Part shown: one piece after another, positions 1 through 63,548 of the stretch
Numbering within the stretch: the stretch's first letter is position 1
Layout of the letters: every line of letters begins with the position of its first letter
From: a virus
Virus record (IMG/VR): IMGVR_UViG_3300046167_000466
Coordinates: 1-63,548 of that record
Strand: one strand, 5' to 3'
Length of the DNA: 63,548 nt
Program-made: the position numbers and the translations under genes
Notes under the pieces: model-generated
Databases searched by the model: none
What the model saw: only the letters and a program-made list of their open reading frames with translations
What the model was told of the DNA's origin: nothing

Positions 1-296
1 ACTGTCAAATTGTACGCCATCAACAAACTCAACATAAGTTTCGTTTGTATCAGACTCTTCCATTAGAACGACTCCATTTTTTCCAACTTTTTCATAAGCT
101 TGTCCAATTTTATCTCCAAGCTCTGTGTCGTTGTTGCATGAAATACTAGCAACTTGCTTAAGCATGTCACCTTTAATTTCAATACTGGCTTTATTAAGAT
201 AAACCATAACTTTTTCAGCGCCACTAGTAATGCCACTTTTAAGCTCTCTAACTTCTTCTTCATTTAAGTGCTTATTAACTGTTTTAAGTAAAGAAT
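1..296. repeat. Terminal direct repeat, left copy
   Basis: Bases 1-296 are identical to 63253-63548. The repeat lies inside groEL and restores its reading frame when the ends are joined. This marks a complete circular or circularly permuted genome of 63,252 bp. It is most likely assembly overlap, although a real direct terminal repeat cannot be excluded from sequence alone. Confidence 0.97.
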
Positions 297-606
297 GCGC
301 GAGGACGGTTGATGTTGTTGTACCGTCCCCGGCTTCTTTTACTGTATTGCTTGCCGCTTCTTTTATAAGTGTAGCGCCAATATTCTCAACCGGATGTAAT
401 AAGACTACGCTTTCCGCAACGGTTACACCATCTTTTGTAATCACCGGTTTTCCAAGGGCGTCCTCATATATAACGCATTTTCCAGACGCACCCAACGTGC
501 TCTTTACTGCGTTTGACAATTTTTCAACGCCTTGCATAATTTGTTGTTTGGCATCATCGCCAAATGTGAGAGTTTTAACTATCTCACTAGGGTTATTAAA
601 TTCCAT
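1..606 (-). CDS. groEL: Chaperonin GroEL, N-terminal part (gene continues across the contig break)
   Basis: This is the 5' half of a phage-encoded GroEL. The start ATG is at 606-604, and the frame is open to base 1 and continues from 63252 down to 62305 because the contig ends repeat. Joined, the protein is 517 residues; bacterial GroEL is about 548. Visible hallmarks are KPVITKDGVTVA (about residue 53) and the ATP-site segment AGDGTTTSTVL (92-102), whose Asp94 corresponds to E. coli Asp87. As a family, GroEL folds proteins in an ATP-driven double ring with GroES, which is encoded next. A role in folding capsid or tail proteins is inferred from its place in the late operon. The leader is AT-rich without a Shine-Dalgarno sequence. 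Confidence 0.93.
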   Translation of the reverse strand, partial: MEFNNPSEIVKTLTFGDDAKQQIMQGVEKLSNAVKSTLGASGKCVIYEDALGKPVITKDGVTVAESVVLLHPVENIGATLIKEAASNTVKEAGDGTTTSTVLAHSLLKTVNKHLNEEEVRELKSGITSGAEKVMVYLNKASIEIKGDMLKQVASISCNNDTELGDKIGQAYEKVGKNGVVLMEESDTNETYVEFVDGVQFDS

Positions 607-626
607 TAAATTAAATTTTAAATTAT

Positions 627-920
627 TTACTCTTTTTCAAAAGTCTTTACAATTTTAGGTCCTTTCATAAAATCTAGCTTTTTCTGATAATATTGAATTG
701 ATCCGTCAATTGCTGCTTCTGCACCCTCGATAGTTTCTCTCCTTGTAATATCTTTCCAGGAGTCTTCGTCTGGTACTTTGATTTCTGTTTGGTAGAATCC
801 ATTTGGTAGTTGCACGATTCGCCAATTGCTTTTGTCGGAGGCGTGCTTCCAGGTTTCTACGGTTTTTTCACTTACTTGTGGTTGACTACTCCACGAACTA
901 GTCTGATAAAATAGTGTCAT
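627..920 (-). CDS. Conserved-type small phage protein of unknown function
   Basis: The gene encodes 97 residues with no signal peptide or membrane segment. It has a central RIVQLPNGFYQTE stretch and a charged C-terminus (YYQKKLDFMKGPKIVK). It lies between the tail-fibre genes and groEL in the late operon, ending 20 bp before the groEL start. The RIVQLPNGFYQTE stretch reminds me of small proteins in marine T4-like phages, but I cannot name a family. A minor virion or assembly role is only suggested by position. Confidence 0.7.
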   Translation of the reverse strand: MTLFYQTSSWSSQPQVSEKTVETWKHASDKSNWRIVQLPNGFYQTEIKVPDEDSWKDITRRETIEGAEAAIDGSIQYYQKKLDFMKGPKIVKTFEKE

Positions 921-29563: not shown

Positions 29564-32500
29564 TTATTGCTGCATTAATATTTCTTGTTTCTTTCTTTTG
29601 TTTTCTGCTCTTGTAGCCGATGCTTTTCTAGCAGCTTCGCTTCTTCTTCTTTTTTCTTCAGCCATATAAGCTTGCTTTTCTTCAGGGCTCATTAAAGCTA
29701 ATTCATCAAGTTTCTGTTGCTGCTTTCTCTTTCTTGTTTCAGCGGCTTTCTTTTTGCCTTCTGCTTTACGATTTGCTTTACCGACAAGCTTAACCCATTC
29801 TTCTTCCTCTTTTCTAGCTTTAACATCCCATGTTCTCCAACCTAATCCCAAAGCTAATCTTTGATAAGATGTATTTCTAGCGTCAAGCGCCTCTGCTATA
29901 CCGTCTATTTCAGCTAAAGCTCTATCTAGCGGTAGGTTTAATCCAGCAGATGAAAGTGATGCTAATATTTCGTAATTAGGTGATATGTTAAATCTTCCGT
30001 CTAAAGTAACATCCCAGCCTTGAGCTTCCATTACATCTTTGTCAAACTTCTTAGTTTGAATTGCGCCGTATACTTTCCTCATCTTAGAACCTATAGGCGG
30101 CGATACGTTCGCTAGTTCTAATAGCGTGTAGGCGTGATCAGCATTATAACCTTTCTTCTCTTCTTTATAGTATCTATTAATTGTGTTCTTTAATGTTGAT
30201 ACTACCGCACCTGTTAATCCAGATCCCCTGAGAATAGTGTCCACCATAGAATTAACAATTCTTTCAGTCTTTGTATTAATGATTTTTTCGTACTGCTCAT
30301 CGTCTTCTTCTTCATCATCAAATCCTGGTATTAATGCAAATAATGAATTTTGCAGCGCACTAAATATAAGGTTTTGTATAAACCCATAATAAGCTATCTT
30401 ACTAATATTAGTCTTAGCATCGCCACGGCCGTTTATAAGATCCTGGCCAGCTTTTTTCATTAATCTAGTGTATTGCATCGGCGTATTTTGAAAAGCCAAT
30501 ACAAGACGCCCTAAATGACTCGACTGTTGTGCAGATACAAGCATAGGATCACCTGATTGCTGTGTCTCATCAGAGATAGCGCTAAAGTCTTCAAATGCTT
30601 TTGCTTCCGCTTCTGCCTGTGATAAACCTTGCTTCTTATAAGTTTTTGTTCTGTTAATTAAAAACGTAGCGCCTCCTGTTGCAATAGCAAAACTATCCGC
30701 TATTTGAGTAGGTGTGAAACCTATTTTTAATAAGTATGCAACTACAGCGCTCGCTTTGTCTTTACTGTTCTTAGCTTGGTTGGCTATCTCTTGCTCTTGC
30801 ACATCGGATTTTAAACCACCACGACGTTCTTTAAGTTTATCAGAGTTAAATATTTTTGACCATGCACTCCAGTATGCTGGTTGATTAGCAAATGCGATAC
30901 CAGCTTTTAACGGATTATTATCACCCCAATTTACAAAGTTAGCAAATGACAACATCTGCATTGCTGCTGATCTACGGTTAAAAAACATTATAGTACCTAC
31001 AGAGTTGTTAACCCAGTTTAACCATTGTTGTTCATAAGCTCCTGGCTGGGCCGGTCTGTTACGGCCAGACTTCATTCGAGCTATTGAGTTCTTTAAAGCA
31101 TTTACATAGCGAGTGCCGTACGCAGCTTCTAGTTTGGTTAAATTGTTTTCGTCAAATATAATATCAACGTTATCGTTAAACTCCTGTAAGTACTCGCCTC
31201 TTGTAAGCACTTCGTTAATTTCATTAATATCTTTTAAAACAGAGCCTGCTATCCAATGCTCGCTCGGAGCAGGCCATTGATCTTGTTTTGATATTGTCTG
31301 CAGACCTTGAGCAAACGACGTTAACATTGGGTCTTTAGCTATCAAGCTGTTTAGTTTCTTTTGATCTCTTTTGGATATACCAGGAACCTCTTGCCCTTGC
31401 TGTGTCCATAAGTATACACGTACCGCTTGATCAACAGTGTAATCTGTGTCTCCGATTTGTTTACCTAAACGTTTTTTCATTCCGGGTAAAGCTTTTAATA
31501 AAGTAGCAAAATCATTTTTAAGCGCACGCCTAGCCTTCTCCATAGCGGCTATACCTCTCATATATGGCGCCACTAAATTATCTTCAAAGAATTTTTGATC
31601 AGCTTCACCTTGCTTGCCTTTACCAGCCAATGTATATGACGTTAGCCCTCTAAAGTCCTCTGCCCCATACGGTAAGAAAACTTTAAATCTACCCTTTTTA
31701 GCGCCTTCTTTTCTTGCTCTGATCTTAGAGTATACGGCTTCAGACGCAATACCTTTATTGCGCTCAATCATATCGTTAAGGTCTTTACCCAGCGCGGCGC
31801 TTCTTTTAACTCTTGCTTGCTGCACTTTACCTTTAACATCAAACGTATTAAGAACATCCTTAACAGCCTTAACATTACCCATATGGTCATCTACAAAATA
31901 AAAGTCATTATAACCTTCTGAAACTTTGCCTACCATCCACGCAGCCTTTGCAGCAGGGGCGCCATTGGCGAGCCCAGTTATGTTTTCAAGCGGTATCTCT
32001 AACCCTATACCTTTTAAAAATCCGTGTATAGCATTTGCCGATTCTGCTGGCCTAGCTGTTAATACAAATATATTTTTGTTACCAAACTTTTGTATTGCCT
32101 TTTTTAATCTAGGGGCTAACGGTCCAGGCGTACCTTTAACAACCTTACTAAATTCACTAAAATCAAATTCAGCTCCTGACTTAGCAAGTTGATCGCCTTG
32201 CTTGGCAAATTCGGCAGGTGTTATTTTCTTTGTTGTACGCGGTACATCTTTTAATACTTTCGCTTGCTCTTCTTTTGTAAGGTTATCAAACTTTCTTAAG
32301 AAACCCGGGAGATCTTTAAACTCATTTGCAAATAATCTTCTAGCGGCAATATCAAGTATTTCTTTATTTGGAGGCATTTTTACTATAACCTCGCTTTTGC
32401 TAAATGCAAGAGTATCATCAAAGTCATATACACTAATACCTTTGGGGTTAGCGGCATATGATTGTTTTCTAGCATTATTTATAGCTTTTTGCTCTGTAGC

Positions 32501-35500
32501 TATTTTAGCGCGCTCAGCAACGTTTTTGGCGCTAAACATTGTATTTAGTAAGGTTTGTACCCTACCAATTGTTTGTAATCCCTTTATATCGTAAAAAGCA
32601 TTTTGGCTTTCTAGTGGTATAGCTAATAATCTTAAGTCGCCAATATCGCTTGTTGATCCTAGCTTTGCGTCCTGCAGATCAGATAATACTTTAGTGTTTA
32701 ATTGTTGATTAAACTCTGTAGTTAATTCATTAATCTTTGCGATTAAAGCATCTTTAACTTGTTGCACGCCGCCGGGGTTTTGCAAAGCGATACCTAGCAT
32801 CGTTAAATACTCTTTAGCGACAGCTACATTAAAATTAGATGAAGGTGTTGCATGCTCACCTTTTATTCTTAATAACTGAGCTAAGGTTTGTTTAGAGCCA
32901 TCAGCTATAAACTTTTTAGCCTCTTTGTAGTTGGGGTGATTTTCATTAAGAACAATTTCACCAGATTCAACTTTTGATACTTGGCTAGCGGTTAATGTGT
33001 TACTATATCCCTTGCCGTTTTGGGTATTTATGTAAACAGCTTGAGATGCAGCTGTCATTTGTATATCGCTAATACCTGTTAAAGATCTAAGTGACTTGCC
33101 TATATTAGTCGTAGACTCTAGCATCCTTAAGAATCCAACGGCTTGTTGTGGTTTAGCTACAGCAATATCAAACGCTGTAGATATAACTTTTTCTATAGCT
33201 TTTTTATTTGCTACATTTAAAGCGTCTACTTCCTCACCGTACTTGTCTATAAAAGCATCAACTTTATCTTGAGCGGTTTGGAATTCTTTATTTAATATAT
33301 CCTTTGTTATAGTAGCGACAATGCCGGAACCAGCTTGTATTAAGCGCATGTCCTCAGGATTAAATCCTATGTCTTCACCTGTATCGGGTAATGCTTCTAT
33401 TTTTGCTCTTATTTTAGCGCCTAAAGACTTTGCTTCTTTAGGGTTTAAATATCTATAATGCGCGCCAAAGAAATCTGCTCCCAAAGCTTTTACTAGTGCG
33501 TTTGGTAAAGCATCTATCATAGCTGTACTAAACTGATAGTATTCCTTCATTGCTTGTTTGTTATCACGAGCTGAATTGTTTTCAAAATACTGATCAATAA
33601 ACGGCTGTACATTTTCTGGTGCGTCCTTCCATTTCTTAATAGATTGCTTATACCTAGCCGTGTCAACTTTTATATTAGCTGTAATATTTTCATAAGCTGC
33701 TCTGTCTTCGGCTGACAATACTTCCAGTAATGCTAATGAACCATCTAGGTCTCCGTCTATTTCCAATGCTAACGCATCTCTAAATATTGTTTGAGTGTTT
33801 ACAATAGCGCTTCTTTTAACAAGACCACGTTCGCTTTGCTTTGCTACTTCCTCAACAAAGTTATCCGCTATAGCCATACCAAGCATCTCTTGATTATTTT
33901 CAAAAGCTTGACTTATAGGACTATCTGGATCCTTTAATGCGTCGTTTATAACATCAAAACCGTATTCTTCAGCTAGCGCTTTAGATAAAGATTCTTTACG
34001 GCCACGTATAACGTCACCATCTTTAAACATATAGCTAAGAAATTGTTCGTCAGTAATTTTGTTTGCCGCATTTGGTAAACGTCTTACTATTTCAGGGCCC
34101 GATGTTTTACCTTGTTGTTTGGTTGATGTCTTTGCTCTATCTATTGTTTTACCTTGCCAATCGCTAGTGTATTTAGGTATAAATATAAAATCACCGTTAG
34201 AGTCTTTAACTCTTTTGCCTTCGTTGTCAACTTTATAAGTACCGCCGACAGATTTTTGTATTGTAAACGGCATAGCTTGCATCAACCATGTGGTTGTCAT
34301 GTTCTCAAGTATAGCTTTCTTGTATCTAAGTACATTTTTCTTAAGCTCATCACCCTTCTTTTTGCCTAGCATCTTTTTAAACTCAATATCGATTGCCTTG
34401 CCAAGCTCACGCTTCAGCTCATTGATAATAGGTGTTACAGACGCGTTAGGCCCTAACGGTGCATCTAATCTGCTTTTTAATACTCTAGCTATAGATATTA
34501 TTTTTTGCTCTACAGCTTTAGCTTGCTCTGCCGGTAATATTCTTGTTTGTGTAAGATTTCTATATTTAGGTTTTTCTTGCGTGACTGGAGCCTGCTCTGG
34601 TGCAATTAAATCTTTTTGATCTTCAGGCTGTAAATTGTCGACCGTACCTAAAAATTGTCTTTCGGTTGGTTGTAGTTTATACTCTGCTCTAACAACGTCA
34701 GCTATACGAAAACTAATTCTTCCGCCAAGATAACCACTTAGTTGGCCTCTCCCGTCCCAACCTGTATTTTCTTTGGCTAAGTATATTCTTCCAACAACTT
34801 CAGCTGTAAAATCTTGCAACGCTTGAGGTGGCAATGTATATCTCCCGGCTATTTGAGCTGCAACCATGTTTGTAATCTCTTCAAACAATAAGGCTTGAGC
34901 TCTTGGCCCAGACAGTTGCTCTTTTGTTATAAGATTAACCCTTGCATTACTTTTTGCCGCCGCTGAACTTATTTGCTGTTTAGTTATTCCGCTACCAGCT
35001 ATTCCTTTCTTTATTGAAAAGCCAGCAGCTTTGTTTTGAAAATTAGCAACAAAAGCGTAAACATCACTTGCACTATTAATTTTAAATAACGGCGCCATAT
35101 CACCATTAAATTTTTGCAACAAATTGTTAATAAATGTTTTTGCTCCAAACAAATTACCGTAACTGCTTCTAGGCAAAATACCTATTGCCGTGAAGTCCCC
35201 TATAAGCTGTATAAGCTCATCTGCATCAACACCATTAGTTTCAGTATATTTTCCTTTACCTTCTTTTGTATAATAAGCCATACGCTCATTAAAAACATTC
35301 ATTTCTTCCTGCGTGATCTTGCCTTGCTCAAATCTAGACTGTACGTCTTGTAATATATTTTGTACAATATCATTAGCAGAATCAACTGCTAGCTTATCGT
35401 TTTTTATTAGGCCAGCCGCAACAGCTTGCTGGTGTCCTATTTCATGTAAAGGTGATACCGCAGCTATTTTAGCATTTATACCGCCTTGGGACATTTGATT

Positions 35501-38386
35501 TAAAATAACCTCTTCGTAAATAATTTGATCACCATTTAGCTCAAATGAAGCATTTGATGTTCCGTAGTTATCTAAAAATTTCTTTTTCGCTGCGTCATTA
35601 TCTTTAAAAGCTTGATCCGCATAAGCCAAAGCCTCTGCCTTGTCTTTAATTAATACACTGTTTATACCTGGATTATTCTCAGCTATATATTTATAAGTAT
35701 TATAAGTTCTAGCATTAACTTCTGCCTCAACTGGGTTTGCTGTATTTTTAGCAAACTTCTCGATATTAGTTTCACCTCTGCTAAGCATTTTTTGATTAGC
35801 GTTGAACAACTCTTGGGCTTTAGAGCTTAGTCTATCAAATTCTTTTTTATTTAAATCTGTAACATCTAAGTCTTGCGCTTCAAGTTTTAACCTACGTATT
35901 TCAGCGTGGTTTTCAAATACAGTTTCAATTTCACTGCCAGTAAGATCTTTAAGATTAAGCATTACATCAGTGTTCTCTATACCCGCCTGAGTAATAAGAC
36001 GATCTCTTTCAAATCTCAATGCTCTAGCTTCAGCAGTTCGCCCGTCTAAGTTTTCTAACTCCGCTTGAATACCAAACAATTCATCTCTAATCTCTGCTTC
36101 TCTGCGGCTTTGTTTTCTAGTTTTAACAGCCCCCGCAACTTGACTATATATGTTTTGGCTAACACTAGGTCCAGATATAGCTAAAGATGTTACCATGGTG
36201 TTCCTAAAGAATTCACCATCTAATCCTTCTATAAGACTTTTGGGGTTGTTGGGCTGGAATATAACATTGTCAGATGCGTTTTGGCCTATAAGAGTCATGC
36301 TCTCTTCTAGCATTTCTATACCTGCTCCAATACCTGTTGCATTAAGCAAACCTACATTTTTAGCAACCCTTGAGCCTACCGCGTCTCCAAATAGTTTTCT
36401 AAATTGATTACCGCCAACAGATTTTGAATACTTTTGAAAATTACTTATAAAGCCTAATGTACCTATTCTTTCTGCTCCAGCCGCAATACCACCATATATT
36501 ACACTATTAAGGCCTTTTTGGAACATACCCAAACTTAACAGATCCTCTTGGTCTTGTATTTGACTTTTAATTTTATTCATATCAGCCACCGCAGCGCCAG
36601 ATTCTTGCATTGCCTTAAGCTCTTCTTTCAGCCCGGCAATTACTTTAGGTGCGTTACGCTGTCCAATTTCTAAATTAGATAATTGCCCACCCGCTTCCAT
36701 AGTAAAAAATGTACCTGTAGCATATCTTGAAGCTGTTTTTACAGCTGCTGCTCTTACAGCCGCGCCACCTCCTGCAGCGGCTACACTACCATATCCCGCT
36801 GTGGCTAAAGCAACTGCTATAGAGGGTGAATTATTAACAAGCATATCGCCAGCATACTGCCAAGCAGTGCTATCATCATCCATTGTTAAATTGCCTGGCA
36901 AATATTTTTCGCTATACTCTTGTAGCTTTTGATTGTAGTCTATTGCTGCGTTGTAAGTTTCTTCATCACCAAACACTCTTGCGATACCACCAACTAACAT
37001 TTTAGCACTACCCACAAACGCGCTATCCCAAACATTGGCCAGCTTATCCATAGTTTTATATGACTTAAGCAAAGCTGCATCACTTATTCCAGCAACTCCG
37101 GCTTGTTCAATTTCATTTGTCAATGCTGTAGACTCCGTGTTTAGTACAACTATTTGAGCATTTATTTTATCTAAAAGATCATTTTCTTGCTTAATTAAAT
37201 TATTTCTTATAGCTAGCTGATCAGGGGCATTGTAATTAACCGTAGAGTACTTTTGCATTTCCGCTTGTAAAGCTTCAAGTGATTTAATGTCACCTTCTAC
37301 ATTAACTTTATCTTTTTCAAAACTTTCTAGTCTGCGACCAATCTCTATTTGATTTTGTTTTTCAACTTCATCTAGTGTTAATTCTAAATTAGGAATAGGA
37401 TCATATGTTACGCCGTCAATAGTTTGTTTTTCAACTAAACTTTTACCTGTAATTTTAAAGTATGCAGCCTGATCTTTTTGTGCTTGCTCAACAGCGTTAG
37501 CGTAAGCTTCTTGTTTCTTTTTTTGCACAGCTTCAGATCCAGTATAAAACTCTGCTAAAGTTTTAGCGTCATCGTCAACACCTCTTAATGGTATTTCCGA
37601 AGCAGATTTTTGCGCTTCATATACAACTTGCGCTTGAGTGTCAGCACTTGCGTCGTCTAATGTAGCGAAGTTAGCTATATTATCTTTATTTAGAGTCATA
37701 CCAAACTCCTCAGCACTGCTTTGTAGTTCTTTGTACCTATCGTATTTATTACCTAACTGCTCCTTAAGGTAATCCTCGTATTGTTCATCTGACTTAAACC
37801 TAGGCATAGACGATGCCCATCCCCCCATGCCAGCATACCCATATCTATGGTCCCTAGACTTAAGCTCACCTAACTTAAAAGTCTTTGCTAATATATTATT
37901 TTTTTCTGTTTCAGCTGTTATACCGAGTACTAACTCTTGATTATCTTTTGCTATTTTTTTAGCTTCAGCTTCTAGCTCCGGATCTATATTTGTAATTAAA
38001 CCTTGCGCCGCATCAACTTTTTTCTGCATTTTTGCATCATAAGCTATAGCGCCTGGGGATCCCTCTCTGTAATATTCTCTACGTATAGATTCAGCGCTTC
38101 TACCTTTTTCACGCTCTTGTCTATAATAACCTTGGTCACCTTTTTGTAATTCCGAAGAAGTATCTTCCGATGGCAACTCCGTAGCTTCGGGTTGAACACC
38201 CGTAATTATGGATGCTCGACTTGGCATTGCTGGAGTTGCAGGCGCATCCGTCCCCGCAGCTCCGTCTTGAAAATCCTCTTCTACAAGCGTTGATCCCGGA
38301 AAATCTTTAAGAAAATTATCCAGTTGTTCTTGCGAGTAATCATCAGTGTTGACAATTCCTCCATTAATCAATTTATAATCTGGCAT
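29564..38386 (-). CDS. Giant ejection-type polyvalent protein with zinc-protease and HAD motifs
   Basis: The gene encodes 2940 residues, 14% of the genome. N-terminal 400 residues are charged and helical. Around 510-560 is an Ala/Gly-rich hydrophobic segment. H981-E-I-G-H985 is a zincin protease motif (SPLHEIGHQQ). D1988-F-D-D-T starts a HAD phosphatase domain (also LTARP near 2110 and VDDH near 2165). Around 2670 is another hydrophobic stretch (NLIFSALQNSLFALIPGF) before an acidic patch, and the tail is Lys/Arg-rich. Such layouts are known as large polyvalent proteins injected with phage DNA. It follows two T7 gp14/gp15-like genes, matching the gp16 position, so it is probably ejected into the host. 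Confidence 0.82.
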   Translation of the reverse strand: MPDYKLINGGIVNTDDYSQEQLDNFLKDFPGSTLVEEDFQDGAAGTDAPATPAMPSRASIITGVQPEATELPSEDTSSELQKGDQGYYRQEREKGRSAESIRREYYREGSPGAIAYDAKMQKKVDAAQGLITNIDPELEAEAKKIAKDNQELVLGITAETEKNNILAKTFKLGELKSRDHRYGYAGMGGWASSMPRFKSDEQYEDYLKEQLGNKYDRYKELQSSAEEFGMTLNKDNIANFATLDDASADTQAQVVYEAQKSASEIPLRGVDDDAKTLAEFYTGSEAVQKKKQEAYANAVEQAQKDQAAYFKITGKSLVEKQTIDGVTYDPIPNLELTLDEVEKQNQIEIGRRLESFEKDKVNVEGDIKSLEALQAEMQKYSTVNYNAPDQLAIRNNLIKQENDLLDKINAQIVVLNTESTALTNEIEQAGVAGISDAALLKSYKTMDKLANVWDSAFVGSAKMLVGGIARVFGDEETYNAAIDYNQKLQEYSEKYLPGNLTMDDDSTAWQYAGDMLVNNSPSIAVALATAGYGSVAAAGGGAAVRAAAVKTASRYATGTFFTMEAGGQLSNLEIGQRNAPKVIAGLKEELKAMQESGAAVADMNKIKSQIQDQEDLLSLGMFQKGLNSVIYGGIAAGAERIGTLGFISNFQKYSKSVGGNQFRKLFGDAVGSRVAKNVGLLNATGIGAGIEMLEESMTLIGQNASDNVIFQPNNPKSLIEGLDGEFFRNTMVTSLAISGPSVSQNIYSQVAGAVKTRKQSRREAEIRDELFGIQAELENLDGRTAEARALRFERDRLITQAGIENTDVMLNLKDLTGSEIETVFENHAEIRRLKLEAQDLDVTDLNKKEFDRLSSKAQELFNANQKMLSRGETNIEKFAKNTANPVEAEVNARTYNTYKYIAENNPGINSVLIKDKAEALAYADQAFKDNDAAKKKFLDNYGTSNASFELNGDQIIYEEVILNQMSQGGINAKIAAVSPLHEIGHQQAVAAGLIKNDKLAVDSANDIVQNILQDVQSRFEQGKITQEEMNVFNERMAYYTKEGKGKYTETNGVDADELIQLIGDFTAIGILPRSSYGNLFGAKTFINNLLQKFNGDMAPLFKINSASDVYAFVANFQNKAAGFSIKKGIAGSGITKQQISSAAAKSNARVNLITKEQLSGPRAQALLFEEITNMVAAQIAGRYTLPPQALQDFTAEVVGRIYLAKENTGWDGRGQLSGYLGGRISFRIADVVRAEYKLQPTERQFLGTVDNLQPEDQKDLIAPEQAPVTQEKPKYRNLTQTRILPAEQAKAVEQKIISIARVLKSRLDAPLGPNASVTPIINELKRELGKAIDIEFKKMLGKKKGDELKKNVLRYKKAILENMTTTWLMQAMPFTIQKSVGGTYKVDNEGKRVKDSNGDFIFIPKYTSDWQGKTIDRAKTSTKQQGKTSGPEIVRRLPNAANKITDEQFLSYMFKDGDVIRGRKESLSKALAEEYGFDVINDALKDPDSPISQAFENNQEMLGMAIADNFVEEVAKQSERGLVKRSAIVNTQTIFRDALALEIDGDLDGSLALLEVLSAEDRAAYENITANIKVDTARYKQSIKKWKDAPENVQPFIDQYFENNSARDNKQAMKEYYQFSTAMIDALPNALVKALGADFFGAHYRYLNPKEAKSLGAKIRAKIEALPDTGEDIGFNPEDMRLIQAGSGIVATITKDILNKEFQTAQDKVDAFIDKYGEEVDALNVANKKAIEKVISTAFDIAVAKPQQAVGFLRMLESTTNIGKSLRSLTGISDIQMTAASQAVYINTQNGKGYSNTLTASQVSKVESGEIVLNENHPNYKEAKKFIADGSKQTLAQLLRIKGEHATPSSNFNVAVAKEYLTMLGIALQNPGGVQQVKDALIAKINELTTEFNQQLNTKVLSDLQDAKLGSTSDIGDLRLLAIPLESQNAFYDIKGLQTIGRVQTLLNTMFSAKNVAERAKIATEQKAINNARKQSYAANPKGISVYDFDDTLAFSKSEVIVKMPPNKEILDIAARRLFANEFKDLPGFLRKFDNLTKEEQAKVLKDVPRTTKKITPAEFAKQGDQLAKSGAEFDFSEFSKVVKGTPGPLAPRLKKAIQKFGNKNIFVLTARPAESANAIHGFLKGIGLEIPLENITGLANGAPAAKAAWMVGKVSEGYNDFYFVDDHMGNVKAVKDVLNTFDVKGKVQQARVKRSAALGKDLNDMIERNKGIASEAVYSKIRARKEGAKKGRFKVFLPYGAEDFRGLTSYTLAGKGKQGEADQKFFEDNLVAPYMRGIAAMEKARRALKNDFATLLKALPGMKKRLGKQIGDTDYTVDQAVRVYLWTQQGQEVPGISKRDQKKLNSLIAKDPMLTSFAQGLQTISKQDQWPAPSEHWIAGSVLKDINEINEVLTRGEYLQEFNDNVDIIFDENNLTKLEAAYGTRYVNALKNSIARMKSGRNRPAQPGAYEQQWLNWVNNSVGTIMFFNRRSAAMQMLSFANFVNWGDNNPLKAGIAFANQPAYWSAWSKIFNSDKLKERRGGLKSDVQEQEIANQAKNSKDKASAVVAYLLKIGFTPTQIADSFAIATGGATFLINRTKTYKKQGLSQAEAEAKAFEDFSAISDETQQSGDPMLVSAQQSSHLGRLVLAFQNTPMQYTRLMKKAGQDLINGRGDAKTNISKIAYYGFIQNLIFSALQNSLFALIPGFDDEEEDDEQYEKIINTKTERIVNSMVDTILRGSGLTGAVVSTLKNTINRYYKEEKKGYNADHAYTLLELANVSPPIGSKMRKVYGAIQTKKFDKDVMEAQGWDVTLDGRFNISPNYEILASLSSAGLNLPLDRALAEIDGIAEALDARNTSYQRLALGLGWRTWDVKARKEEEEWVKLVGKANRKAEGKKKAAETRKRKQQQKLDELALMSPEEKQAYMAEEKRRRSEAARKASATRAENKRKKQEILMQQ

Positions 38387-57866: not shown

Positions 57867-58141
57867 TACTTACTCCTTCTTTCTGCAAATCCTGAAAAGG
57901 TTTTCTTTTTTTCCTCTTCTTTAGGTTTGTTCTCTAATATAGCTTCTTCTTCTTGTATACGCGTAAGTATTTCAAAAGCATCAAATATAGCTAACTTTTT
58001 TGTAGCCGCAGCGTTCTTCAACCTATCAGCTGATATGTCATCATCAGAATCAACTATAGGTTCTTTAGCTACTTTAATTAATTCCTCAACTGCTATTTGC
58101 CCAGCTTGGATTATATTCTTCTTCGTCTCCTTGATATTCAT
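57866..58141 (-). CDS. Small helical protein before TerL, possible small terminase
   Basis: The gene encodes 91 residues: helical, with an acidic centre (EPIVDSDDDISADRLKNAAA) and a Lys-rich end. Its stop is coupled to the TerL start. The gene just before TerL often encodes the small terminase subunit, but no HTH is evident, so this is a guess from position and size. Confidence 0.65.
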   Translation of the reverse strand: MNIKETKKNIIQAGQIAVEELIKVAKEPIVDSDDDISADRLKNAAATKKLAIFDAFEILTRIQEEEAILENKPKEEEKKKTFSGFAERRSK

Positions 58142-58685
58142 ATTTAATTGTAATTAGATTTGTTGGAACACGATATAATTTTTCTTTATTTATAATAAAT
58201 TCGTACTCTGCGCCAGGCCTAAAGCCTACGAGATCACCTTCTTCAACACTTTTTAAACTAGGGTCTTTATATTTAAGCACTCCTATTAATGGTTTTTCAA
58301 AGTTGATTGAAAACATTTTATTTTCTTTTATGGGTTTAACAAAGTTAAATCCATTTAATGGTATCCACTTGTATATACGCTTGTACGCGAATATTTGATC
58401 TGGCGAAACAAAATACATATTGTTTTTATAATAGCTCCTGCTATTTTTTTCTTCGCCTCTAATATCCCGGAATCTACGGAATACATTGTGATGCAATACA
58501 ACCTCATCGCCTTCACGTACACCAGTTGAGTTTGTCTTTGGTGTGGCCATAACAATACCTATTCTTGAAACAAAATTATGATTTTGTAATTCCGTATTAA
58601 GTATTAATTCTTTACCATCTATTGTTTTTGTATTGTTATACCTGTCTTCTTTAGGCATAACAACAAAATCAAAAACGCCTCTCAT
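58086..58685 (-). CDS. Protein built of two GroES-like halves
   Basis: The gene encodes 199 residues. The first half (FDFVVMPKEDRYNNTKTIDG, GIVMATPKTNSTGVREGDEV, VLHHNVFRR) and the second (IGVLKYKDPSLKSVEEGDLV, GFRPGAEYEFIINKEKLYRV) each repeat the GroES outline: a G-x-V strand, a G-D-x-V strand, then a strand ending near the C-terminus. It is much longer than the 85-residue GroES at 62051. It may be a dedicated co-chaperonin for capsid folding, like T4 gp31, or a structural relative. The overlap with the next gene is 56 bases. Confidence 0.68.
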   Translation of the reverse strand: MRGVFDFVVMPKEDRYNNTKTIDGKELILNTELQNHNFVSRIGIVMATPKTNSTGVREGDEVVLHHNVFRRFRDIRGEEKNSRSYYKNNMYFVSPDQIFAYKRIYKWIPLNGFNFVKPIKENKMFSINFEKPLIGVLKYKDPSLKSVEEGDLVGFRPGAEYEFIINKEKLYRVPTNLITIKYEYQGDEEEYNPSWANSS

Positions 58686-61613: not shown

Positions 61614-62054
61614 TTATCTTTCTTTATCGTTAATCATATCGTCAATAGCTTTGTTATAAACTTTATCCGTATATGTTTTATTTTTATAAAATGTACTTCT
61701 CTCAGATGTTGGCAAATCCTCTTCTGCTAACATTATTCTGTATATTCTTTTAATTAGTAGCTTACACTTATTTGATGTTTTATAAACAGCGTACTTAGAC
61801 GTAGTGCGGTTTCTTTCTTTAAATACATCAATCCAACCGTTTCTTCTTAAGCGTTCCCACCGGTTTTTATCCCAGCTGTAAGTATAAACACCGTTAATAA
61901 AATCATTACGTGTAAAAAGCTTTTTGCAATCTAAATAAATAAGTAGTTCTAAATCAGCATCTTTTAAATTGTAAGTTTTACAGACCCACCTTCTGATAAG
62001 CCTGTAATACTTTAACAAATTCATATCCTGCAAGTCTTGCCCGCTTAGTCTCAT
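61614..62054 (-). CDS. Putative winged-helix protein after GroES
   Basis: The gene encodes 146 residues from ATG 62054, which overlaps the GroES stop (ATGA); an upstream ATG at 62108 lies inside GroES. Sequence LSGQDLQDMNLLKYYRLIRR, DLELLIYLDCKKLFTRNDFI, WDKNRWERLRRNGWIDVFKE has the layout of MarR-like winged helices (recognition region about 60-85). It may be a late regulator or have another DNA role. Translational coupling to GroES is clear. Confidence 0.72.
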   Translation of the reverse strand: MRLSGQDLQDMNLLKYYRLIRRWVCKTYNLKDADLELLIYLDCKKLFTRNDFINGVYTYSWDKNRWERLRRNGWIDVFKERNRTTSKYAVYKTSNKCKLLIKRIYRIMLAEEDLPTSERSTFYKNKTYTDKVYNKAIDDMINDKER

Positions 62055-62308
62055 TCTATAAGTACTATATCTGAGATTTTTAACACATAATACAAATGAT
62101 CGTTCCATTCAATACCATGCCCGGCGTGCTTATCATACCTAACAAGATCTCCGTCTTGTAGTATATCTATTTGGTCACCTATACTAATGACCCTGCCTTT
62201 AACGTAACGTACGTCTTTATTTTGCTTTTCAGTAAGTTCTAATCCGCCTACTTTTGACGGCTCCTCTTTTATCTTGTCTACAATTACAAAGTGATTTATT
62301 GCTTTCAT
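62051..62308 (-). CDS. groES: Co-chaperonin GroES
   Basis: The gene encodes 85 residues, a little shorter than the usual 95-97. It has KAINHFVIVDKIKEEPSKVG, the mobile-loop region KVGGLELTEKQ, KGRVISIGDQIDILQDGDLV and the roof-like end YYVLKISDIVLIE. It overlaps the groEL stop by four bases (ATGA), so the pair is translationally coupled, with groEL first rather than groES first as in most bacteria. It should cap the GroEL ring of the same phage. Confidence 0.88.
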   Translation of the reverse strand: MKAINHFVIVDKIKEEPSKVGGLELTEKQNKDVRYVKGRVISIGDQIDILQDGDLVRYDKHAGHGIEWNDHLYYVLKISDIVLIE

Positions 62309-63548
62309 GCTAATCGTTTATTACTGATTATACAATCGGCAGATATAATTGTATTAACAACACTCACTGCGTTTTTTAAAGCTGTTTTTGTAACTAACAC
62401 TGGATCTATAATCCCAGCTTTGATCATATTAACATCTTTACCCGTTTTAACATCTATACCTCTATTTTTGATTTGAGGATACACCACAGGCATATTGGCA
62501 TTTTCTAATATAGTTTCATATGGCGATCTTATCGCTTCTAACAATATTTCTTCACCTTTGTTTTTAGCTTTTACTAATGTAGAGGCATTTAACAAAGCAA
62601 CTCCGCCTCCAGGAACTATACCTTCTTTATAAGCAGCTTTTGTCGCATATATCGCGTCTTCGATGCGATCTTTCTTTTCTTTAAGCTCAACCTTAGAATC
62701 CGCTCCAACATATATTATACCGACTTGTCCGGTTAACATTGATAAGCGTTGCTCTAATTTTTTCTTAAAAAATGGATTGGTTTCTTCGGCTATTTGCTTT
62801 TCAACATCCATTATTCTTAATGCAACCTCTTCATTTGCTTCGGCTACTTGCAGAACAGTGTTTTTATCGTCTGTAACAGCTTTAAACGCTTTGCCTAATA
62901 CATCAGGGTCTATGAGATCTAAATCGTCCCCTAACTCTTCGTTTATTATATTAGCACCAGTAAGTATTGCTAGATCTTCAAGCGTCTGCTGCTTAGTTGG
63001 CCCAAAGCCAGGTAAATCAACTATATTTACTTTTATATTGCCTTTTACTTTATTGGCTAATAATGTTTGATACGGTTGTTGATCCATATCCGCTACTATC
63101 AGTAAGCTACGCTTATTTTTTATAACATGCTCAAGCACATTTTGTATTCTACGTATATTTGGTATAGGTGAAGATACTATAAGAACATATGGATCTTCTA
63201 ATGTAGCTGTACCTTTATTTTTATCCGTAGATAAATGCTGCGATTTTAATCCACTGTCAAATTGTACGCCATCAACAAACTCAACATAAGTTTCGTTTGT
63301 ATCAGACTCTTCCATTAGAACGACTCCATTTTTTCCAACTTTTTCATAAGCTTGTCCAATTTTATCTCCAAGCTCTGTGTCGTTGTTGCATGAAATACTA
63401 GCAACTTGCTTAAGCATGTCACCTTTAATTTCAATACTGGCTTTATTAAGATAAACCATAACTTTTTCAGCGCCACTAGTAATGCCACTTTTAAGCTCTC
63501 TAACTTCTTCTTCATTTAAGTGCTTATTAACTGTTTTAAGTAAAGAAT
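62305..63548 (-). CDS. groEL: Chaperonin GroEL, C-terminal part (open at the contig end)
   Basis: This is the 3' part of the chaperonin gene begun at 606-1; the last 296 bases duplicate the window start. Visible blocks are GKNGVVLMEESDTNETYVEF, DGVQFDSGLKSQHLSTDKNK, IEDAIYATKAAYKEGIVPGG and GVALLNASTL, which are standard GroEL equatorial and intermediate elements, with the Asp of IEDA matching catalytic Asp398. It ends ...CIISNKRLA without the usual Gly-Gly-Met tail. The stop TGA overlaps the groES start. Confidence 0.93.
   Translation of the reverse strand, partial: SLLKTVNKHLNEEEVRELKSGITSGAEKVMVYLNKASIEIKGDMLKQVASISCNNDTELGDKIGQAYEKVGKNGVVLMEESDTNETYVEFVDGVQFDSGLKSQHLSTDKNKGTATLEDPYVLIVSSPIPNIRRIQNVLEHVIKNKRSLLIVADMDQQPYQTLLANKVKGNIKVNIVDLPGFGPTKQQTLEDLAILTGANIINEELGDDLDLIDPDVLGKAFKAVTDDKNTVLQVAEANEEVALRIMDVEKQIAEETNPFFKKKLEQRLSMLTGQVGIIYVGADSKVELKEKKDRIEDAIYATKAAYKEGIVPGGGVALLNASTLVKAKNKGEEILLEAIRSPYETILENANMPVVYPQIKNRGIDVKTGKDVNMIKAGIIDPVLVTKTALKNAVSVVNTIISADCIISNKRLA
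63253..63548. repeat. Terminal direct repeat, right copy
   Basis: This stretch is identical to bases 1-296. See the left copy: joining the two closes the circle and makes one intact groEL. Confidence 0.97.

Follow-up and report, generated by a model that had tools for sequence, protein, structure and literature searches.

A phage groEL–groES pair with intact ATPase residues and altered groove, lid and inter-ring surfaces

Our analysis of a 63,548-nucleotide stretch of viral DNA (IMG/VR record IMGVR_UViG_3300046167_000466, positions 1 to 63,548; hereafter, the window) suggests that it encodes a functional group I chaperonin pair private to the phage, which would be made late, driven by ATP and closed by its own lid. 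We consider this reading, drawn from sequence comparison, to be likely. The groEL-first order of the two genes was already known. What the aligned sequences add is a changed apical groove in GroEL, a changed GroES loop, lost inter-ring salt bridges and a missing C-terminal tail, and it is these rewired surfaces, which can be put to the test, and not the gene order that give the module its interest.

Results and discussion

Circular genome and gene content

Bases 1–296 of the window are identical to bases 63253–63548, forming an exact 296-bp repeat at both contig ends, and in complete relatives the same segment sits inside groEL in a single copy. The identical ends and the single copy in these relatives together indicate that the contig closes into a circle of 63,252 bp; groEL is split at the contig ends because the circle was opened inside the gene. 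We considered the end repeat as additional coding sequence and rejected this, since the relatives hold one copy and the repeat is the overlap of a circular assembly. When joined across the junction (minus strand, from 606 to 1 and then from 63252 to 62305), groEL is one open frame of 1554 nt encoding 517 amino acid residues and a stop codon, in agreement with the first-pass annotation of the window, which had proposed a full GroEL completed by bases 1-606. That annotation had given the extent as 62051–63548 plus 1–606, which identified the gene correctly but counted the 296-bp overlap twice. The features of the locus are as follows.

1..606, minus strand: 5' part of groEL; start codon at 606; PF00118 positions 1-186; continues across the junction into 63252 to 62305
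62305..63252, minus strand: 3' part of groEL; stop codon TGA at 62307-62305; PF00118 E=2.1e-53 for the joined protein
62051..62308, minus strand: groES, 85 aa; start ATG and groEL stop TGA run together as ATGA; mobile loop KVGGLELTEKQN
61614..62108, minus strand: phrog_17028 gene, 164 aa; overlaps groES
627..920, minus strand: small gene directly upstream of groEL in the same direction; kept in many relatives and found in 55 stretches
58086..58685, minus strand: GroES-like protein of tandem (double) type, 199 aa; lies immediately upstream of the terminase genes
63253..63548, no strand: end repeat (overlap of circular assembly), identical to 1-296

A run of minus-strand genes extends from about 8 kb down through the circular junction to 28.5 kb and includes genes for holin, the tandem GroES, terminase, portal, head, tail, lysis and packaging; the plus-strand genes (about 8.8–28.6 kb) include those for ribonucleotide reductase, thymidylate synthase, primase-helicase, ligase and a sigma-like protein. 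The groEL–groES pair thereby sits in what looks like the late block of the phage genome. The largest phage gene is a single frame of 2940 aa (29564-38386, minus strand). The Bacteroidota -7 motif TANNTTTG occurred 48-53 times per strand, close to the 40 expected, and gave no promoter directly 5' of groEL. The 164-aa gene that overlaps groES is under purifying selection (dN/dS 0.03-0.12) and could be part of the chaperonin module. All portal relatives with a known host are from phages of Flavobacteriia. The source is a marine bacteriophage and its host, as judged solely from the named relatives, is probably flavobacterial.

Conservation of GroEL and GroES

The joined GroEL matched the Pfam family Cpn60_TCP1 (PF00118) at 2.1e-53, above the curated cut-off and spanning positions 1-489/490, and the PHROGs family chaperonin groEL at 6e-141. 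A relative whose GroEL is 97% identical to that of the window (L011) did not reach the NCBIfam GroEL equivalog TIGR02348 (448.7 bits against a cut-off of 582), and reached the NCBIfam subfamily NF000592 (456.7 over 397). Because groEL of the window is divided between the two ends of the contig, the fold was modelled on this relative; the AlphaFold2 model (pLDDT 86) gave TM scores of 0.87 to GroEL in the gp31 complex and 0.86 to single-ring mtHsp60. Loss of key ATPase residues, a possibility that had been raised at the outset, was not seen: the ATP/Mg residues D52, D87, T89–T91, D398 and D495 were unchanged in 79/79 aligned family members. The pairwise dN/dS of groEL against close relatives was 0.05–0.10 (where dS was measurable), which indicates strong purifying selection. 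On these comparisons, we regard the window GroEL as a complete group I chaperonin, its homology to Cpn60 extending over the equatorial, intermediate and apical domains.

The stop codon TGA of groEL and the ATG of groES overlap at 62308-62305, confirming the proposed ATGA overlap with groEL first. GroES matched Pfam Cpn10 (PF00166) at 2.9e-9 (37.3 bits against a curated cut-off of 21.1), PHROG co-chaperonin GroES phrog_3188 (8e-13) and Thermus thermophilus Cpn10 (1e-5), and its pairwise dN/dS against close relatives was 0.01–0.10 (where dS was measurable). A tblastn search of phage records with the 84-aa GroES gave no match, showing that GroES is divergent, rather than absent, in these records.

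Gene order and distribution

Among the matches listed in a scan of IMG/VR with the window GroEL, we collected 80 relatives with 67–100% identity. The order groEL, groES and then the 164-aa-type gene was found in 80/80 of these listed relatives, and the tandem GroES-like gene lies further downstream in most of those with long enough stretches. The junction between groEL and groES varies among relatives (ATGA, TAATG and others), so that adjacency, not one particular overlap, is what is conserved. In three wider phage groups, groEL precedes groES in 80/80, 21/22 and 13/14 cases among the matches listed. The host order is the opposite, as had been asserted for most bacteria: groES precedes groEL in 30/30 Flavobacteriaceae chromosomes, drawn from the family of one Flavobacteriaceae MAG, and likewise in E. 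coli. Since the order is kept across phage groups and reversed in hosts, the inverted order is a stable phage trait.

The novelty that had been attached to this order was not upheld. The inverted order is already known: it is conserved in a large phage clade of ancient origin and is annotated in cultured Flavobacterium phages. In addition, the order of the large and small viral chaperonin subunits has been reported as linked to GroEL phylogeny, in a Lake Baikal study (PMC9611531, quoting Marine et al. 2017 on virioplankton). The pair as an invention of this phage was likewise rejected, since annotated relatives exist. The remark that phages with both genes are uncommon has to be qualified: GroEL-like genes matched 281/50,697 phage records (some of these being bacterial records), but IMG/VR contains at least hundreds of contigs with this GroEL family.

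Phylogenetic origin

In a maximum likelihood tree of 70 GroELs, the window GroEL grouped with that of its close relative L007, the two falling within a phage clade that comprises 45 sampled rows (the window, IMG/VR groups and phage-like MAG contigs) with support of 100/95. The GroELs of Panino and elemo fell outside this clade, and the host and E. coli GroELs were placed elsewhere in the tree. The window GroEL is 41–44% identical to host GroEL and 37% identical to E. coli GroEL, and the phage GroES, as measured on L007, is 19–27% identical to host GroES. A recent host origin of one of the two genes, for which we looked by both phylogeny and identity, was not seen, and the deep phage clade and these values show that neither gene is a recent host capture.

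These data bear on the view that the locus has no role specific to the phage, being either host genes captured recently or part of a contig that is chimeric or bacterial. Chaperonin genes originate in cells, and the GroELs of phages DAC16 and Va1, together with that of 207E48.1, do group with cellular GroELs, suggesting that phages have probably taken up groEL more than once. The contig of the window, however, is a closed circle with terminase, portal and holin genes, and its locus is common to 80/80 listed viral relatives; the view is refuted by the tree and the synteny, and we regard it as extremely improbable.

Phage-type groEL contigs were also found in GTDB genomes titled Maricaulis, Alphaproteobacteria, Euryarchaeota, Rickettsiales and Aliivibrio (L094, L095, L097, L099 and L100); these are probably phage contigs misbinned into those genomes. 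One Flavobacteriaceae MAG (G001; L104, L106 and L110) has a host-type groEL and three more groELs, two of which are of the phage type, with groES following groEL. The MAG G004, titled Maricaulis, contains a thermosome-like chaperonin (L101) that is likely to stem from contamination, either archaeal or viral, or to be a group III chaperonin of a bacterium.

Altered groove, loop and inter-ring residues

We take Y199, Y203, F204, L234, L237, L259, V263 and V264 to be the apical residues of E. coli GroEL that bind substrate and GroES, as in established mutagenesis. This hydrophobic set is a hallmark of canonical GroEL and not a strict requirement of the family. In the window it reads L-H-L-Q-L-Y-L-A, with only L237 kept. 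The change L234Q was found in 79/79 aligned family members; elsewhere in the groove, Y199 is replaced by L/I, Y203 by H (72/79), F204 by L (73/79) and V264 by A/S/T. Hosts keep the groove as Y-Y-F-L(M)-L-L-V-V(M), with M rare, and their groove and inter-ring residues are conserved at or near 30/30. Of the two inter-ring salt bridges, K105–D435 was present in 0/78 members of the phage family and R452–E461 in 4/78, against 30/30 hosts for each; alignment columns about 430–465 are gappy and residues there shift between alignments, so that these counts concern the loss of the bridges and not the residues replacing them. The C-terminal Gly-Met tail present in hosts is missing from the phage GroEL.

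The mobile loop of the window GroES reads GG-L-E-L, with the outer two positions of the tripeptide hydrophobic and Glu at its centre. The tripeptide is L/I-E-L or similar, with the central Glu in 79/80 listed relatives, whereas hosts have III, IYI or LYI. E. coli GroES no longer binds when it carries I25D or L27D but still does so with V26D (PMC5575113); since V26D is tolerated, the phage L-E-L loop should still allow the lid to bind. A strict rule by which GroEL position 234 and the middle residue of the GroES loop vary together was rejected, because Q234 occurs with both LIL and LEL. The LEL loop occurs with M264 in the L177 group, and the link of the middle residue to GroEL position 264 is incomplete and confounded with clade membership. 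The combination of L234Q with an all-hydrophobic LIL, and of LEL with M264, indicates that the changes follow clades and no strict pairwise rule; as statistics, the case for lid–groove co-adaptation in these sequences is weak.

These surfaces also bear on whether the pair could be host-like, that is, a double ring with an exchangeable lid that simply adds folding capacity late in infection. The membership of the same Pfam families, the intact ATPase residues, the predicted GroEL fold and the persistent association of groEL with groES agree with such a pair, but most of the groove and inter-ring residues that hosts keep are lost or changed in the phage clade, the identity of its GroES to that of hosts is just 19-27%, and there is no Gly-Met tail. 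We therefore consider a host-like pair unlikely.

Human mitochondrial Hsp60, a single-ring chaperonin, is without the same two salt bridges, and an engineered single-ring GroEL gains function once lid binding is weakened (PMC5575113). The phage EL chaperonin makes double rings via other contacts (PMC7185714), so that the loss of E. coli-type inter-ring residues is no proof of single rings.

Tandem GroES-like protein

The tandem GroES-like protein at 58086–58685, already recognized in the first-pass annotation as a double GroES-like protein, was confirmed as such. It matched PHROG co-chaperonin GroES at 5e-16, a family matched by 35/35 relatives; when searched alone against Pfam, it gave no Cpn10 match. 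Cpn20 of Chlamydomonas is a tandem GroES, and chloroplast lids mix Cpn10 and Cpn20. The AlphaFold2 model of the phage protein (pLDDT 78) had Chlamydomonas Cpn20 (7ekq_R; E 4e-5, 198 columns) as its best PDB match, and two GroES-type barrels are predicted in the one chain. Across the 35 relatives, the first half carries a near-invariant L-[I/L]-L-N-T(-E) in the loop region and the motif HHNVFRRFRD. The protein was found in 77 phage records, from Flavobacteriia phages or their kin.

By analogy with the chloroplast system, the phage might have a self-contained, orthogonal single-ring machine in which an L-E-L lid with a weakened grip is joined or replaced by the tandem GroES for a particular late protein, as with Cpn10 and Cpn20. 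We put this forward tentatively, as a possible but rather doubtful elaboration.

Comparison with other phage chaperonins

The Flavobacterium phages vB_FspP_elemo (Elemovirus; NC_055853 and others) resemble the window in that groEL is followed directly by groES and a tandem-type 180-aa co-chaperonin GroES lies beside the terminase large subunit. Their portal is 42% identical to that of the window, their GroEL only about 36%. Unlike the window, they keep L234 and Y199, have LYL in the GroES loop and have an altered ATP loop, in which T91 is C or G (L085, 5998-7560, and L163-L176). The GroEL of the cultured elemo phage also has G88S, L31M and P33Y, with D52, D87 and D398 retained; the ATPase behaviour of elemo GroEL may, on these residues, differ.

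The closest named portal (55%) is from the uncultured phage MW202828 (Manatee Spring), in which groES follows groEL on the same strand and a tandem GroES-like protein is encoded near the terminase, as in the window. Its proteins are, however, distant (the tandem GroES is 36% identical), and tblastn gave no close GroES match. The Cellulophaga phages phi38:1, phi40:1 and Calle (Pervagoviridae) and Maribacter phage Panino also have groEL, groES and the tandem GroES-like protein, and their GroELs are 36-40% identical to that of the window; the Panino paper reports both homologues (PMC11590407). Unlike in the window, groES precedes groEL in phi38:1 with one gene between them, and one small ORF separates groEL and groES in Panino. 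Viral GroELs are known from marine plankton as well (Marine et al. 2017, as cited in PMC9611531).

T4 gp31 and RB49 CocO are phage co-chaperonins of the GroES kind, as in the window, but are used with host GroEL, whereas the window phage encodes its own GroEL. The gp31 protein of T4 serves capsid-protein folding. Phages EL, OBP and AR9 encode group I-like chaperonins with single-ring states; that of EL is far more divergent than the window GroEL (22% to GroEL). For all three, activity in the absence of a co-chaperonin has been described (PMC7185714, PMC9598537), whereas the window has a fixed cognate groES.

They provide the model for a further explanation, in which the window GroEL is mainly a holdase without a closing lid, as in phage EL, and the GroES-like proteins serve other partners, for instance host GroEL or virion assembly. 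The EL chaperonin stops aggregation without enclosing its substrates and does not respond to E. coli GroES, the OBP and AR9 chaperonins are reported to be active without a co-chaperonin (PMC7185714, PMC9598537), and the groove of the window GroEL is partly polar (L234Q). EL, however, has no known cognate GroES, whereas in the present family almost all complete relatives have groES coupled to groEL, the mobile loop is conserved and the dN/dS of groES is as low as that of groEL. These points make a lidless holdase quite improbable.

Proposed mode of action

In our preferred reading, that of a phage-private pair with its own lid, groEL and groES are probably carried on one message, presumably late, and translationally coupled. 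The GroEL rings would bind unfolded proteins, presumably those of the phage, and the cognate GroES would close the rings in a cycle powered by ATP, as in the GroEL–GroES system of E. coli. The surface that the two share would be rewired, through the apical groove of GroEL and L/I-E-L in place of I-V-L in GroES. As groove and loop differ from those of the host, the two phage proteins are probably matched to each other and would combine poorly with host GroEL or GroES. The E. coli-type inter-ring contacts are missing, for which reason single rings are probably the working form at least in part, and the lid would be weak enough to release without a signal from a second ring. The gene content and order, the overlap, the conserved ATPase residues, the purifying selection and the changed surfaces are observed, and from them we infer the time of expression, assembly, ring number, pair specificity and clients.

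Implications

Single-ring chaperonins with their own lid have so far been studied mainly in engineered E. coli mutants and in mitochondrial Hsp60. A large natural family in which the ATPase is intact, the inter-ring contacts are dropped and the lid surface is rewritten would offer many ready test cases. Its existence suggests that flavobacterial phages gain from carrying a whole folding machine rather than borrowing that of the host.
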